Made by a program: the position numbers and the translations under genes
The notes under the pieces: generated by a model
The model's input: only the letters and a program-made list of their open reading frames with translations
The model's database searches: none
What the model was told of the DNA's origin: nothing
Assembly (NCBI GenBank): GCA_020426325.1
Contig: JAGQQG010000028.1
Coordinates: forward strand, 1 to 64,000
Source of the DNA: Planctomycetaceae bacterium
Lineage (GTDB): Bacteria > Planctomycetota > Planctomycetia > Planctomycetales > Planctomycetaceae
Direction of reading: 5' to 3'
Length of the DNA: 64,000 nucleotides
Part shown: positions 24,986 to 29,726 of the stretch, piece after piece
How positions within the stretch are numbered: the stretch's first letter is position 1
Layout of the letters: each line of letters opens with the position of its first letter

Positions 24986-26389
24986 TCAGGCCAATGCTCT
25001 GATCATCCCCGCGGCCTTGTGAAGAGTCTCCTCATACTCAGCGATCGGGTCGGAGGCAACGACGATTCCACCGCCTGCCGGGCAGTGGACCCAACCATGA
25101 CGTTGGATAAAGGTCCTGATCAGGATGCTACTGTCAGCCGTCCCGTCGAATCCGCAGTAGATCATCGAGCCACAATAGGGACCGCGGGCGACCTGTTCGA
25201 GCTCTGTAATGATCTCCATCGCACGAACCTTTGGCGCTCCGGTGATGGAGCCTCCGGGAAAGGTTGCCCTGATCAGGTCCCAGAAATCGCATCCTTCAGC
25301 GAGTCGACCACGAACTTCCGACACGAGATGTTGGACGGTTTCGTAGGTCTCCACCTGGCAAAGCTGAGGGACCGAAATGGACCCGGGACGACAGACTTTC
25401 GACAAATCGTTTCTCAGAAGGTCGACGATCATCACGTTCTCGGCTTGATCCTTGGCACTTTCACGCAGCTCATCCCGGGTGAGCAAATCCGCTTCGGGGG
25501 AGGAGTGTCGCTGTCTGGTCCCTTTGATCGGACGAGTCTCCACAACACCATCCTCAACTCGCACGAATCGTTCGGGGGACGAGCTGATGATCGCCCAATC
25601 ATCATGAGCAAAATATGCTGCGAACGGAGCTGGATTACGTCGGCGAAGCCGTCCGTACAATTGAAGCGGACTAACGAGAGCTGGAGACATCAGCCGTTGT
25701 GACAGATTAGCCTGATAGATATCTCCCGCCCGAATGTATTCGATGACCCGTTCGACCGCTTGCAAATAGTCCGCTCGACTGAAATTGCTGAGCACTCCAT
25801 CAACGCCGGGAACGGGGTGGACTGCGGAGGTCATCGAGAGATTTGAGAAGGGAGATCGTCGCGGGGGATCGGGTTCCTCGACACGCAAAGCGTCCAGGAC
25901 CGACTCAATCCGGCGGTCGGCTGCCTTTGCACGTTCGGTTTCAGTCGTTCCTCCGGTCCAACCATGGGCGATGATCCATGCTCGTCGGTCGACATGATCC
26001 CATGCGAGCACCCAGTCATACACGCCGAGCAGCATCACCGGCAGCTCAAATTCATCGTGTGTCGCGCGAGGCAGACGCTCCCAGCAGCGGCCCAACTCAT
26101 ACGATAACAGACCGAGCACGCCTCCCTGGAATGGCGGCAGTCCTGGCACACGCTCAGTGAAACGCTGTTTGAGAATCTCGCGGATTTCAAAAAACGGTTG
26201 GTCTCCATAGCGAGGGACCGTCAACTCGAATGTTCGCTCAGGAGCCGCTGTCAGGAATGAGTAACGTCCGATGCCGTCCCGCAACAAGGCGCTCTCCAGA
26301 AGCACAACGTCAGGCCAATCGGCTATCGCGCTCAGGGAAGCGAAGACGTCGGGAACGGGATCAAGTTCATGAACGAGTGGCAGAGGCAT
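24986..26389 (-). CDS. pabB: Aminodeoxychorismate synthase component I
   Basis: A 467-residue chorismate-binding enzyme from the ATG at 26389. The C-terminal catalytic domain shows AGDIYQANLSQRL, ETRPIKGTRQR (Lys289 in PIKGT), NDLSKVC, and FPGGSITGAPKVRAMEII. The Lys of PIKGT is the PabB hallmark; anthranilate synthase TrpE normally has Ala there. It makes 4-amino-4-deoxychorismate from chorismate with ammonia from a PabA glutaminase, which is not in the window. The product leads to 4-aminobenzoate for folate or methanopterin. The upstream gene is a dihydropteroate-synthase-related protein, which fits a pterin cassette. Confidence 0.88.
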   Translation of the reverse strand: MPLPLVHELDPVPDVFASLSAIADWPDVVLLESALLRDGIGRYSFLTAAPERTFELTVPRYGDQPFFEIREILKQRFTERVPGLPPFQGGVLGLLSYELGRCWERLPRATHDEFELPVMLLGVYDWVLAWDHVDRRAWIIAHGWTGGTTETERAKAADRRIESVLDALRVEEPDPPRRSPFSNLSMTSAVHPVPGVDGVLSNFSRADYLQAVERVIEYIRAGDIYQANLSQRLMSPALVSPLQLYGRLRRRNPAPFAAYFAHDDWAIISSSPERFVRVEDGVVETRPIKGTRQRHSSPEADLLTRDELRESAKDQAENVMIVDLLRNDLSKVCRPGSISVPQLCQVETYETVQHLVSEVRGRLAEGCDFWDLIRATFPGGSITGAPKVRAMEIITELEQVARGPYCGSMIYCGFDGTADSSILIRTFIQRHGWVHCPAGGGIVVASDPIAEYEETLHKAAGMIRALA

Positions 26390-26429
26390 CAATTGTCAGT
26401 CGTGAAGTTTCAGTAGCGGATTCGTCAGA

Positions 26430-27821
26430 CTAACGAGTTCCACGGCGTCGCTCATGGGCGCTTCCTTCGGGGATCGTGAGGAATCCCCATTGCAATGCCT
26501 GATCCTGATTGTACTGTTTGCCAAGCGTTAATGCTGTCACTGCCTTGCACAGTTCATAGCCCAGATAAAACGTGTGAGCGGAATCCAGCGCCCCACTGTC
26601 TGTCACAACCCGATCAAAGAGTTCAAACGCATCAGTTCCTTTCCAATAACCATCCCGGTTCATGATATGGACTTCGCCACGTTCGGCGAAGATACGAAAA
26701 TTGGGGTCGGAGAGGCTGTCCGCCATCGATTGCAGCGTCTGTTCGCCATACTCGTTCACTCGAGGATCTCTGAGCATGACCAGTGACGAGTCAACATGCT
26801 TGGGAAGAGTCCGGCTAGTGATTGCGTGATAGGCGAGCCTGCGAGCAACGTCGAACTCCTTGACAGCCGAGCGAGCCCAGTTGATGACTTCGGTTGTGAG
26901 AATACCGGTAATTCGCAACTCTTGGCAGATTCCAGCCAGCAACATGTTCATGCCCGCCGTATCCACCTCTGTCAATTCAGTCAGATTGCCGATCCCCATC
27001 ATCATCGGCACTTCCGGCCAACGTCGACGCGTCTCGAAGTATCGGGCCAATGAGGCTGCAAACCCGAAACCGATCGGCTCAATGATTGGATCCACTCGGA
27101 AACGTGAGCCGGCAGCAGTCAGTCGATCAATGGACTCTTCCAATGACGAAAGATCATGCGGATCATCCGGAATCACCACCAGTTCAGCATCCAGTTGCTG
27201 TGCCCAGTCAATGTTCGAACTGTTGCAACTCAAGACAAGTTCCGCGCCTGCACTCACGGCTGCTTCGACCTCTGTACGGTCGAACGAGTCGATCGAGACA
27301 CGTATTCCCTCGTCGATCAATCGGCGAGTGAGTTCGCCGACTCGGGCCCACGATTCTCCCGGCACCGTCCCGACATCGATGACATCGGCACCACTATCCG
27401 CGTAATGGCGGGCAATTCGAAGAATCTCTGGCTCGCTCAGTCGTGGAGCGTGGTTGATCTCGGCCAGAATCTCGATGTCGTATCGGGAAAGCTCGGCTGG
27501 CTTGTTGATCTGACGAAAATGAGCGGGGAGGTCACGGATGTCTTTAGGGCCGCGTTCAAAGGGAACGCCGAAATGAGTCGATAAGGATTCCAAGTCCCCC
27601 TGACACCAACCGGGCAGCACAACTCGATCGTATGAACGATCAATCGTCAACTTGCGCTGGAGCCAATCGGCATGCATCAACGCTGCGACAGAGATCCCGA
27701 GCACACAAACGTCTGCATCAAATTTGGCGGACTCGCAGAGTTCCTCCACAACCCGCCGCACGAGCGGCTCAGCCAATCGACCGGTGACAAACAGAATTCT
27801 TGGGCAGGGTGATGATGTCAT
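26430..27821 (-). CDS. Dihydropteroate-synthase-related protein (methanopterin-type)
   Basis: A 463-residue protein from the ATG at 27821 (MTSSPCPRILFVTG). The N-terminal ~110 residues form a separate domain of unknown role. A DHPS-like TIM barrel follows, with GADVIDVGTVPGESW (from residue 144) and VSIDSFD (from about 175), matching the strand-2 and strand-3 motifs of DHPS. MGIGNLTELTEVDTAGMN follows later. The two-part layout and length match the archaeal and methylotroph DHPS-related family (TIGR00284), tied to tetrahydromethanopterin, rather than the ~280-residue folate enzyme FolP. In that family the reaction would join an aminobenzoate-derived group to a pterin. The exact substrate here is inference. 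Confidence 0.82.
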   Translation of the reverse strand: MTSSPCPRILFVTGRLAEPLVRRVVEELCESAKFDADVCVLGISVAALMHADWLQRKLTIDRSYDRVVLPGWCQGDLESLSTHFGVPFERGPKDIRDLPAHFRQINKPAELSRYDIEILAEINHAPRLSEPEILRIARHYADSGADVIDVGTVPGESWARVGELTRRLIDEGIRVSIDSFDRTEVEAAVSAGAELVLSCNSSNIDWAQQLDAELVVIPDDPHDLSSLEESIDRLTAAGSRFRVDPIIEPIGFGFAASLARYFETRRRWPEVPMMMGIGNLTELTEVDTAGMNMLLAGICQELRITGILTTEVINWARSAVKEFDVARRLAYHAITSRTLPKHVDSSLVMLRDPRVNEYGEQTLQSMADSLSDPNFRIFAERGEVHIMNRDGYWKGTDAFELFDRVVTDSGALDSAHTFYLGYELCKAVTALTLGKQYNQDQALQWGFLTIPEGSAHERRRGTR

Positions 27822-27891
27822 CGGAAGTGCCGAGCGGCTGTGAAGCGTCAGGCAAACCTGCACTCGACGCACCATTCGTCAAGGTTCTACC

Positions 27892-28233
27892 TTAGTGAAT
27901 CCACTTCTTGGGAAAGCCGTCGAGTGCCGACTCGTCGTCAGGTTGCCACTGCGCGACTTCATGAATTTTGACAGCGAGATCAGCGTCCTTACGGGTAATC
28001 GCGCGAGCGCTGTGGGTTTGCAGCTTGACGATCACTTGGGCATATCCCAGTTCCATGTCTGGATGATGGTTTGCCGCTTCTGCCAGATAGCCAATCGTAT
28101 TGGCAAGCAGCATCGTATGTGTCCATCCCGGAGTTCGATACTTGCATCGCAACCAGTTGTCTCTGACTTCCCAACCCGGGAGGTCTTGAAGGGCGTTATC
28201 GATCTGTGCTTGGCTGAGAGCTTCGGTGGACAT
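27892..28233 (-). CDS. Pterin-4a-carbinolamine dehydratase
   Basis: A 113-residue protein from the ATG at 28233, with GGAG upstream. It shows the family motif AEAANHHPDMELGYAQVIVKLQTHSARAIT: His56-His57-Pro58 and His74 are the catalytic and binding residues of PCD. In animals the enzyme recycles tetrahydrobiopterin; bacterial copies work with phenylalanine hydroxylase or act on other pterins. Here no hydroxylase is near; the neighbours are a DHPS-related gene, pabB and an SDR. That context points to pterin cofactor synthesis. It lies 18 bases after the SDR stop. Confidence 0.92.
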   Translation of the reverse strand: MSTEALSQAQIDNALQDLPGWEVRDNWLRCKYRTPGWTHTMLLANTIGYLAEAANHHPDMELGYAQVIVKLQTHSARAITRKDADLAVKIHEVAQWQPDDESALDGFPKKWIH

Positions 28234-28251
28234 TGGGATCTCCTGATGGAG

Positions 28252-29028
28252 TCAACGAACGGCACCGCCGTTCACGTTAATGATCTGGCCAGTCAAAAAG
28301 GACGCATCGTCGCTGACGAGAAACCGGGCGACCTTTGCAATATCTTCCGGTTCTCCCCAGCGAGCCAGGGGAGTCTCACGCAAGACTCGTGATTGCCATT
28401 CCTCACTGGCCTGTTCTCCCCAAGCAGTCCGAATCCAACCAGGGGCAATCGCGTTGACTCGGACTTTGGGAGCGAGACTGAGAGCAAGCGAGCGAGTAAA
28501 CCCCATGATGGCATTCTTGCTGGTCGCAAACAACTCGCCGCTGTCACCCTCCATGCCCTGAGCAGCCTGGTCCCAGCCAATGTTGAGGATGACTCCCCGT
28601 CCCGCGTCGTACATGCGACGGCCAATATCTCGACTCAGCAGGACTGTCCCTCGAACATCGACTTCGTAGAGCCGGTGCAGCTTTTCAGAATACGCGAGCT
28701 TCGCCTCCTCTCCGGTCAGCAAATCGACGCCTGCATTGTTGACCCAGATGGTCGGCGTCCCCCAGTCATGATCCCAGCTCGCATCGGCGAATTGCATCCG
28801 GTCGTCATCGTCTCCGAGATCTGCGGTCAACACACGCGCACGATTGCCAAGTTCAGAAATCCGGTTCGCCACCTGTTCAGCTGCGTCCGTTGAGGATCGG
28901 CAATGGACAAGCACATCCGCTCCCGCAAGAGCAAGTTCCATCGCAATCGAGCGGCCAATCCCACTTGAGGCGCCAGTGACGACAGCAACTTGATCCACCA
29001 GATTCGCGAAGGGGGACTGTGTGAACAT
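28252..29028 (-). CDS. SDR-family protein with altered catalytic site, in pterin cassette
   Basis: A 258-residue Rossmann protein from the ATG at 29028. The cofactor site is intact: TGASSGIG (18-25), NNAG (97-100). A basic residue in VHCRSSTD suggests NADP(H). The classic Ser-Tyr-Lys triad is not: Lys171 is kept in FATSK, but the Tyr four residues before it is Phe167, and the Ser position near ILNIGWDQ holds no Ser. The C-terminal half (GFTRSLALSLAPKVRVNAIAPGWIRTAWG) is normal. Pteridine reductases are SDRs, so a pterin-reducing role would suit the cassette, but with this site the chemistry must differ or the protein may be a binding subunit. It is the first gene of the run. Confidence 0.88.
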   Translation of the reverse strand: MFTQSPFANLVDQVAVVTGASSGIGRSIAMELALAGADVLVHCRSSTDAAEQVANRISELGNRARVLTADLGDDDDRMQFADASWDHDWGTPTIWVNNAGVDLLTGEEAKLAYSEKLHRLYEVDVRGTVLLSRDIGRRMYDAGRGVILNIGWDQAAQGMEGDSGELFATSKNAIMGFTRSLALSLAPKVRVNAIAPGWIRTAWGEQASEEWQSRVLRETPLARWGEPEDIAKVARFLVSDDASFLTGQIINVNGGAVR

Positions 29029-29369
29029 GTGTATCGATCAAAAATGGATTCACTTATCAAGTTTTTGTGAATGATTTCAATGCTTGCTACGTACTAGTAG
29101 GGGGCAAGAAATCACTGATTCCTGTGACTTCTCTTTCCAACTCACTCAAGCCAATCAGCCGATTCATCGGAACTCTTTGATGCGTTGTGGGTTAAGTGAT
29201 TTTCTGTAGTTGACCCCGCTGATGTGTCGTTGCATAATGCAACGCTCGCGCAGCTGAATTCTGGCCCGACACATCAGGGCAACACTTTACCACTTTGACA
29301 ATCGATTCTCAGCCGGTTTGGCCTCAAGCTCAGTAGAGCAATTTTGGGAGGTGCGCCTTGGAGTCAGTT
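29029..29369. other. Divergent intergenic region between the pterin cassette and arsR-like gene
   Basis: 341 bases hold the promoters of both directions. Seen here: ATTCAC / GTGAAT dyad at 29048-29072 close to the SDR start, the nested palindromes at 29219-29277, and a perfect TTGACA at 29295-29300 without an obvious -10. No gene is seen. Confidence 0.6.
29219..29277. promoter_or_regulatory. Nested inverted repeats (possible operator or structured RNA)
   Basis: Outer arms CTGATGTGTCG (29219-29229) and CGACACATCAG (29267-29277) are perfect 11-mers. Inside the left part lies a second perfect dyad, CGTTGCAT-A-ATGCAACG (29228-29244). It could be an operator of the ArsR-family protein encoded 93 bases downstream, or fold as a stem with an inner hairpin in RNA from either strand. 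Confidence 0.55.
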
Positions 29370-29726
29370 ATGTCTAAACCGACATCTGAACTTAGCGATG
29401 AGTTAGTTGACGATGTCGTTTGTTACTGCAAATTGCTGGCCGACCCGACCCGGTTGAGAATCATGCTCATTCTGGGGTTTCAGGGCGACTTGCACGTTTC
29501 CGGCCTCTGTCAGCAGCTCAACCTGAATCAGCCCGCTGTCAGCCATCATCTATCCATCCTGAAGAATGCAGGCGTCATCGACCTGAGGCGTGAGGGCAAG
29601 CACAACTACTACGTCTTCGTGCGAGAGCCTTTCTGCAAGGTGATCAAGAACTTGATTGGAGTCGTGTCGGACGGGAAAAACTCGATCAGTCACGATGGGT
29701 TGGTGTTGAGATTCAAGGAATGCTGA
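29370..29726 (+). CDS. ArsR/SmtB-family transcriptional regulator
   Basis: A 118-residue winged-helix protein from the ATG at 29370, which follows GGAG; an in-frame TTG at 29358 is less likely. Characteristic segments are KLLADPTRLRIMLIL, the recognition helix region LNLNQPAVSHHLSILKNAGVI and the wing RREGKHNYYVF. The CxC metal site found in ArsR/SmtB alpha-3 (ELCVCDL) is absent (here HVSGLCQQL), so metal sensing through that site is unlikely. It is divergent from the pterin cassette and convergent with the ThuA gene. It most likely binds the palindromes upstream, controlling itself and possibly the cassette; this is inference. Confidence 0.9.
   Translation: MSKPTSELSDELVDDVVCYCKLLADPTRLRIMLILGFQGDLHVSGLCQQLNLNQPAVSHHLSILKNAGVIDLRREGKHNYYVFVREPFCKVIKNLIGVVSDGKNSISHDGLVLRFKEC

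Follow-up and report, generated by a model that had tools for sequence, protein, structure and literature searches.

A conserved planctomycete methanopterin cassette and its short-chain dehydrogenase, a candidate dihydromethanopterin reductase

Introduction

Four neighboring genes in a 64,000-nucleotide stretch of a Planctomycetaceae bacterium genome (GCA_020426325.1, contig JAGQQG010000028.1, positions 1 to 64,000; the whole stretch is called the window hereafter) raise the question of which pterin cofactor they help to make, and of which step in its synthesis falls to the short-chain dehydrogenase/reductase (SDR) that the first of them encodes. The other three encode a pterin-4a-carbinolamine dehydratase (PCD), a dihydropteroate synthase-like protein (DHPSL) and PabB, the aminodeoxychorismate synthase component I. 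Tetrahydromethanopterin is a one-carbon carrier common to planctomycetes and methanogenic archaea. Planctomycetes are central to the debate on whether methanopterin-linked C1 metabolism is ancestral or was transferred, and the last enzyme of the pathway is unrecognised in them: according to the review by Chistoserdova, no Afp is recognised in the genomes of planctomycetes, and Methylobacterium uses DmrA as its substitute (PMC5020050). The best overall explanation of the locus, to which we assign a probability of roughly 0.55, is a (dephospho-)tetrahydromethanopterin cassette whose SDR acts most likely as the dihydromethanopterin reductase.

Results

The cassette is transcribed from the minus strand in the order SDR, PCD, DHPSL, PabB (29028-24986). 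A sequence-only reading of this DNA had described four same-strand genes with gaps of 18, 70 and 40 bases, and both the open reading frame coordinates and the family scans confirmed that description. The same four-gene order is found in the two closest relatives (L149 and L150), with 77-86% identity. Of the 109 Planctomycetia genomes that have both DHPSL and the SDR gene (in the window at 29028-28252; 258 aa; PF13561/PF00106), 49, spread over 10 families, carry the SDR immediately before DHPSL on the same strand; in 9 more the two lie at most 15 kb apart. Because the order is kept in the closest relatives and the SDR-DHPSL adjacency recurs in 10 families, the arrangement is not a product of chance. 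Downstream of the pair, many loci carry PabB, PabA, DUF447 and ribofuranosyl-aminobenzene phosphate (RFA-P) synthase.

Next, we asked how closely the cassette follows the enzymes of tetrahydromethanopterin (H4MPT) metabolism. Among 119 genomes of the class Planctomycetia, the counts were 115 for Mch, 114 for RFA-P synthase, 112 for DHPSL and 113 for the SDR. In a phylum-wide set of 149 genomes, the 15 with Mch were precisely the 15 with the SDR (at E <1e-42). Of the 140 from outside the class, 6, from four families, had Mch, and the same 6 had the SDR; the chance of such a match would be ~1e-10 if the genomes were independent, which they are not, as the figure ignores relatedness. A strict DNA signature of the SDR missed 15 genomes that a protein search recovered, so that its absences are not real ones. 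Three out-of-class planctomycetes (L251, L252 and L254) have the run MCH-RimK-CitG-SDR-PCD-DHPSL-PabB on one strand and a fourth (L253) has the same run without PCD; these contiguous runs physically join the cassette of the window to Mch. A further locus (L170) presents MCH-RimK-CitG-SDR-DHPSL-DUF447 as a single run. In all these runs RimK denotes a RimK/MptN-like ligase and CitG a CitG-like gene. The predicted co-occurrence with H4MPT enzymes was thus borne out for mch, with fae and mtdB seen alongside cassette genes at single loci only (L187 and L254). In the window's own genome (G000), Mch lies on C218 with a RimK/MptN-like ligase gene adjacent to it, and RFA-P synthase on C380 with a DUF447-like gene.

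Among the class genomes, Mch was not found in G011, G043, G044 and G059, three of which also have no SDR, G059 being the exception. Conversely, Mch-positive class genomes gave no DHPSL match in four cases (G117, G088, G115 and G118) and no SDR match in three (G039, G082 and G088); G082 also has no HPPK, which fits a single fused gene falling in an assembly gap. In G039 (C17; L135), which also has PabB and DHFR, a response regulator gene stands upstream of DHPSL in place of the SDR.

The DHPS-like protein (27821-26430, minus strand; 463 aa) bears on the type of pterin pathway. It scored 194.4 bits on TIGR00284 and 18.8 bits on the FolP model TIGR01496, far under the 162.6-bit cut-off of the latter, and a separate true FolP is encoded in the same genome (G000:C21; 280 bits on PF00809). 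These profile scores bear out its earlier placement with the archaeal and methylotroph proteins and apart from FolP. Its TIGR00284 score lies below the curated cut-off of 256.65 bits, so we treat it as TIGR00284-like and not as a member; the DHPS-like protein of the Paraburkholderia methanopterin island likewise scores only 177 bits, and the cut-off therefore appears to exclude bacterial members. The Pfam domains show the three-part architecture DUF6513, Pterin_bind and PterinBD-DUF4346, and the AlphaFold model (pLDDT 90) has a DHPS-like barrel whose best fold matches are dihydropteroate synthases. Its ATG at 27821 agrees with the homologs; translation from another in-frame ATG, at 27875, would extend the protein to 481 aa. 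A plasmid search recovered proteobacterial relatives of DHPSL. A second, longer pterin-binding protein of the genome, from a 1275-codon frame, is probably MetH. Separately, a divergent DHPS-like protein was observed in G011 (L073/L148; G011:C1:4280801-4282165), with 34-35% identity and 82 bits on TIGR00284, adjoining PabB.

The fourth gene of the cassette encodes PabB (26389-24986, minus strand), which passed the TIGR00553 cut-off with 345.7 bits against 328.4; its ATG at 26389 agrees with the homologs, and a TTG lies one codon upstream.

The SDR has the profile and the Rossmann fold of the classical family, with a confident structure model (pLDDT 95), but not its catalytic Asn-Ser-Tyr-Lys tetrad. 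Aspartate stands at the Asn position (D124; 28657..28659, minus strand), tryptophan at the Ser position, followed by an aspartate (W152-D153; 28570..28575), and phenylalanine replaces the Tyr (F167; 28528..28530), so that the lysine (K171; 28516..28518) is the only residue of the tetrad that is kept. In an alignment of 124 distinct orthologs, whose source collections overlap and which do not represent independent events, D124, W152, D153 and K171 are present in 124/124, while position 167 is F in 122 and Y in 2. The nucleotide-binding glycines are fixed across the phylum along with these replacements, and the DNA signature of the gene matches the window at 28538-28575. In a tree, the cassette SDRs grouped as one clade (100/100 support). 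A long branch separates it from the remaining SDRs, among them the FolM-type protein of the same genome.

The earlier reading had pointed to the pteridine reductases among the SDRs, but the cassette SDR is not of the PTR1/FolM type. PTR1/FolM pteridine reductases carry the motif TGX3RXG (PMC1971073), at which the window's SDR has TGASSGIG; it scored 145.6 bits on the pteridine reductase model NF006598, whose cut-off is 288. It also falls in a separate clade, and motif and tree together led us to reject a PTR1/FolM assignment. The genome does encode a protein of that type (L145 3337-4991; G000:C370), with TGGAVRIG and 231 bits on the pteridine reductase model, directly followed by FolB and FolK. 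That protein is probably the folate-side dihydropterin reductase; no DHFR was found in this genome.

Some orthologs stand out within the SDR clade. The two with Tyr where the 122 others have Phe (L173 and L251) keep the remaining signature residues and would be useful natural variants for enzymology. A protein from a Chloroflexota metagenome-assembled genome (MAG; L203 5959-6732) also belongs to the clade, where its branch is long, and has a similar motif (GWDM and F..K); the 9.4-kb stretch that contains it gave no match to any of the methanopterin queries. An HPPK-SDR fusion was also seen in a record titled Bacteroidales (L191 5476-6714), which may be a misbinned planctomycete contig; both records could be misbinned. 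The SDR of G059 (L136; G059:C104:2986-3726) has 48% identity and an altered motif (Q154A), and adjoins a PabB homolog.

To place the SDR against known dihydromethanopterin reductases, we surveyed these across the class. None of the 119 Planctomycetia genomes had an AfpA/DmrB over the cut-off, the best match reaching 31 bits against 90 for the Paraburkholderia AfpA. DHFR, the family of DmrA, was over its cut-off in 37 of the 119 genomes and in 1 of 30 members of the window's family, and it was not found in the window genome, DmrA itself not having served as a query. In proteobacterial islands (L108 and L109), the gene immediately before the DUF6513 gene is AfpA, in the slot that the SDR occupies in planctomycetes. 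As the SDR fills this slot while AfpA/DmrB is absent and DHFR mostly so, it becomes the candidate for the missing reductase.

A gene fusion ties the SDR to the pterin side of the pathway. Two families (f3 and f8) include 28 genomes with the SDR, and in all of them HPPK (FolK) is found no more than 1.5 kb away on the same strand; in the loci inspected the reading frames give a single HPPK-SDR protein of ~400-450 aa, and both Pfam domains were present in the two fusion proteins tested. No second HPPK was found in the f3 and f8 fusion genomes.

Finally, the PCD (28233-27892, minus strand; 113 aa) scored 85 bits on PF01329, over the cut-off, and is the only PCD found in its genome; the active-site motif is intact in this protein and in nine others. 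It shares 52% identity with the Paraburkholderia PCD beside RFA-P synthase and 54-67% with the other cassette PCDs compared, but 33-35% with two other planctomycete PCDs. Judging by these identities, a PCD subfamily peculiar to methanopterin islands appears to exist, to which the window protein belongs. In most SDR-DHPSL pairs no PCD separates the two genes, and the gene is probably an accessory, optional member of the cassette. As a marker of methanopterin synthesis PCD was rejected, because 118 of the 119 class genomes have one, including those that have no Mch.

Beyond the cassette, an ArsR-family regulator gene lies at 29358-29726 of the window, divergent from the SDR gene, and several family members keep the two side by side despite a relocated DHPSL (L089 and L090).

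Discussion

The TIGR00284-like DHPSL, Mch and RFA-P synthase uphold the methanopterin half of the earlier proposal of a methanopterin-type or unusual pterin cofactor; its other half appears to fall away, ordinary (dephospho-)tetrahydromethanopterin being the most likely product. The proposal had also made the dehydratase and the SDR unassigned steps of the pathway. Linkage, phylogenetic profile and fusion support this for the SDR, and PCD keeps the standing of an optional member.

From the observed gene order, families, co-occurrence, fusion and residue conservation the following scheme can be predicted, every catalytic assignment in it being our inference. PabB would make 4-aminobenzoate together with PabA and PabC, whose genes presumably lie at other loci, and RFA-P synthase (G000:C380) would convert the aminobenzoate to RFA-P. 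DHPSL probably joins RFA-P to 6-hydroxymethyl-dihydropterin pyrophosphate, and the SDR would then most likely take the resulting 7,8-dihydropterin to its tetrahydro state, as an independent replacement for AfpA/DmrB, DmrX and DmrA. Hydride would go to C6 while N5 would be protonated by solvent, so that the missing Tyr would not be needed; as in PTR1 and DHFR, reduction of the C6-N5 bond can draw its proton from water, which would make the Tyr dispensable. PCD would look after the integrity of the pterin ring, one possible task being the dehydration of 4a-hydroxy-H4MPT. That the SDR serves methanopterin synthesis in some capacity is very probable. Its choice for this particular step stands at about even odds, and so does the broader proposal that planctomycetes evolved an SDR-type reductase of their own, with an Asp/Trp-Asp/Phe/Lys site devoid of the catalytic Tyr and Ser, and fused it to HPPK in two families.

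Several observations weigh against this assignment. The catalytic Tyr and Ser are lost and the chemistry is only predicted, the PTR1/FolM motif is absent, and AlphaFold with Foldseek gave no substrate, the closest folds being FabG and related reductases. The FolM/PTR1-type SDR of the genome could reduce both pterins, and DmrX-type iron-sulphur flavoproteins were not searched for alongside the AfpA/DmrB survey. Among individual genomes, G039 has Mch, RFA-P synthase and DHPSL and no SDR was found in it; G059 has the related SDR without Mch, RFA-P synthase or DHPSL, where it looks like a relic of the cassette; and G011 has its divergent DHPSL without Mch, RFA-P synthase or SDR, possibly a remnant or a new use. 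More generally, the evidence would fit some other reduction in methanopterin synthesis as well as the dihydromethanopterin one.

The foremost such reduction lies at the sugar arm, where the SDR would reduce an intermediate on the way from the ribofuranosyl group of RFA-P to the open-chain ribitol. We know of no enzyme assigned to that step. Linkage and phylogenetic profile speak for it as much as for the dihydromethanopterin step, a quinoid intermediate would not require a Tyr proton donor, and the lost Tyr would fit a substrate in which the carbon to be reduced is electron-poor and not part of a carbonyl group. The step is, however, expected in all methanopterin makers, yet the SDR is confined to planctomycetes save for two MAG records, and its fusion to HPPK suggests action on the pterin head and not on the sugar arm; we regard this role as unlikely, though the best placed of the rivals. 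Less likely again is a repair pair resembling the mammalian PCD and dihydropteridine reductase, in which PCD would dehydrate 4a-hydroxy-H4MPT arising by oxidation and the SDR would then reduce the quinonoid dihydropterin. Its appeal comes from the position of PCD between SDR and DHPSL in the window, the close relatives and the out-of-class islands, from the intact PCD motif, and from the recurrence of the island PCD subfamily in Paraburkholderia (52% against 33-35% identity). Against it, PCD is absent between most SDR-DHPSL pairs, the fusion to HPPK favors synthesis over repair, and the Paraburkholderia island has a PCD, while nothing in the part of it that was read matches this SDR.

The replacement of three of the four classical catalytic residues would also suit a redox-inactive protein, a structural or regulatory partner of DHPSL or HPPK; we consider this improbable, because replacements and nucleotide-binding glycines that are fixed phylum-wide argue for a selected active site and not for decay. 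Least probable, by a little, is a FolM-like folate or free-pterin reductase that offsets the scarcity of DHFR in the window's family and is only incidentally linked to methanopterin, since the SDR tracks Mch and not DHFR, occurs in DHFR-positive genomes too, is missing together with DHFR from the f7 genomes G011 and G043, and coexists with the separate FolM-type SDR beside FolB and FolK.

The SDR is the most informative of the four genes: a distinct, fixed, planctomycete-centered reductase is the new content of this locus, and its clear signature, exact co-occurrence with Mch and fusion to HPPK make it a named candidate for the missing last step. If the assignment is true, it would represent a further unrelated solution to that step and an SDR active site that does without the Tyr and is under strong selection. 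Our literature search found no report of this SDR, with most subscription journals outside its reach.

In comparison with known systems, the window DHPSL resembles the archaeal and methylotroph TIGR00284 proteins in its DUF6513 domain, pterin-binding barrel, DUF4346 and association with methanopterin genes, and differs in scoring below the curated cut-off (194 vs 257 bits). PTR1, FolM and TmpR share the fold of the SDR and its pterin-synthesis gene neighbors and reduce dihydropterins, but the cassette SDR lacks TGX3RXG and the catalytic Tyr and belongs to another clade. The proteobacterial methanopterin islands (Kalyuzhnaya et al. 2005, cited in PMC5020050) resemble the planctomycete methanopterin gene set; the one at L108 comprises PCD, RFA-P synthase, MtdB, Mch, RimK-like, CitG-like, Fae and DUF6513 genes, with no PabB annotated in the stretch read, and such islands have AfpA where planctomycetes have the SDR. 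The flavoproteins AfpA/DmrB and DmrX of proteobacteria and archaea share with the SDR the slot upstream of the DUF6513 gene and the proposed reaction, but are FMN enzymes of an unrelated family (PMC6193120). AfpA is able to complement a dmrA mutant of Methylobacterium extorquens for growth on methanol (PMC6193120). DmrA of Methylobacterium belongs to the DHFR family and is unlike the SDR in this respect, whereas the proposed NAD(P)H-dependent reaction is the same and both would be independent bacterial replacements (PMC6193120).

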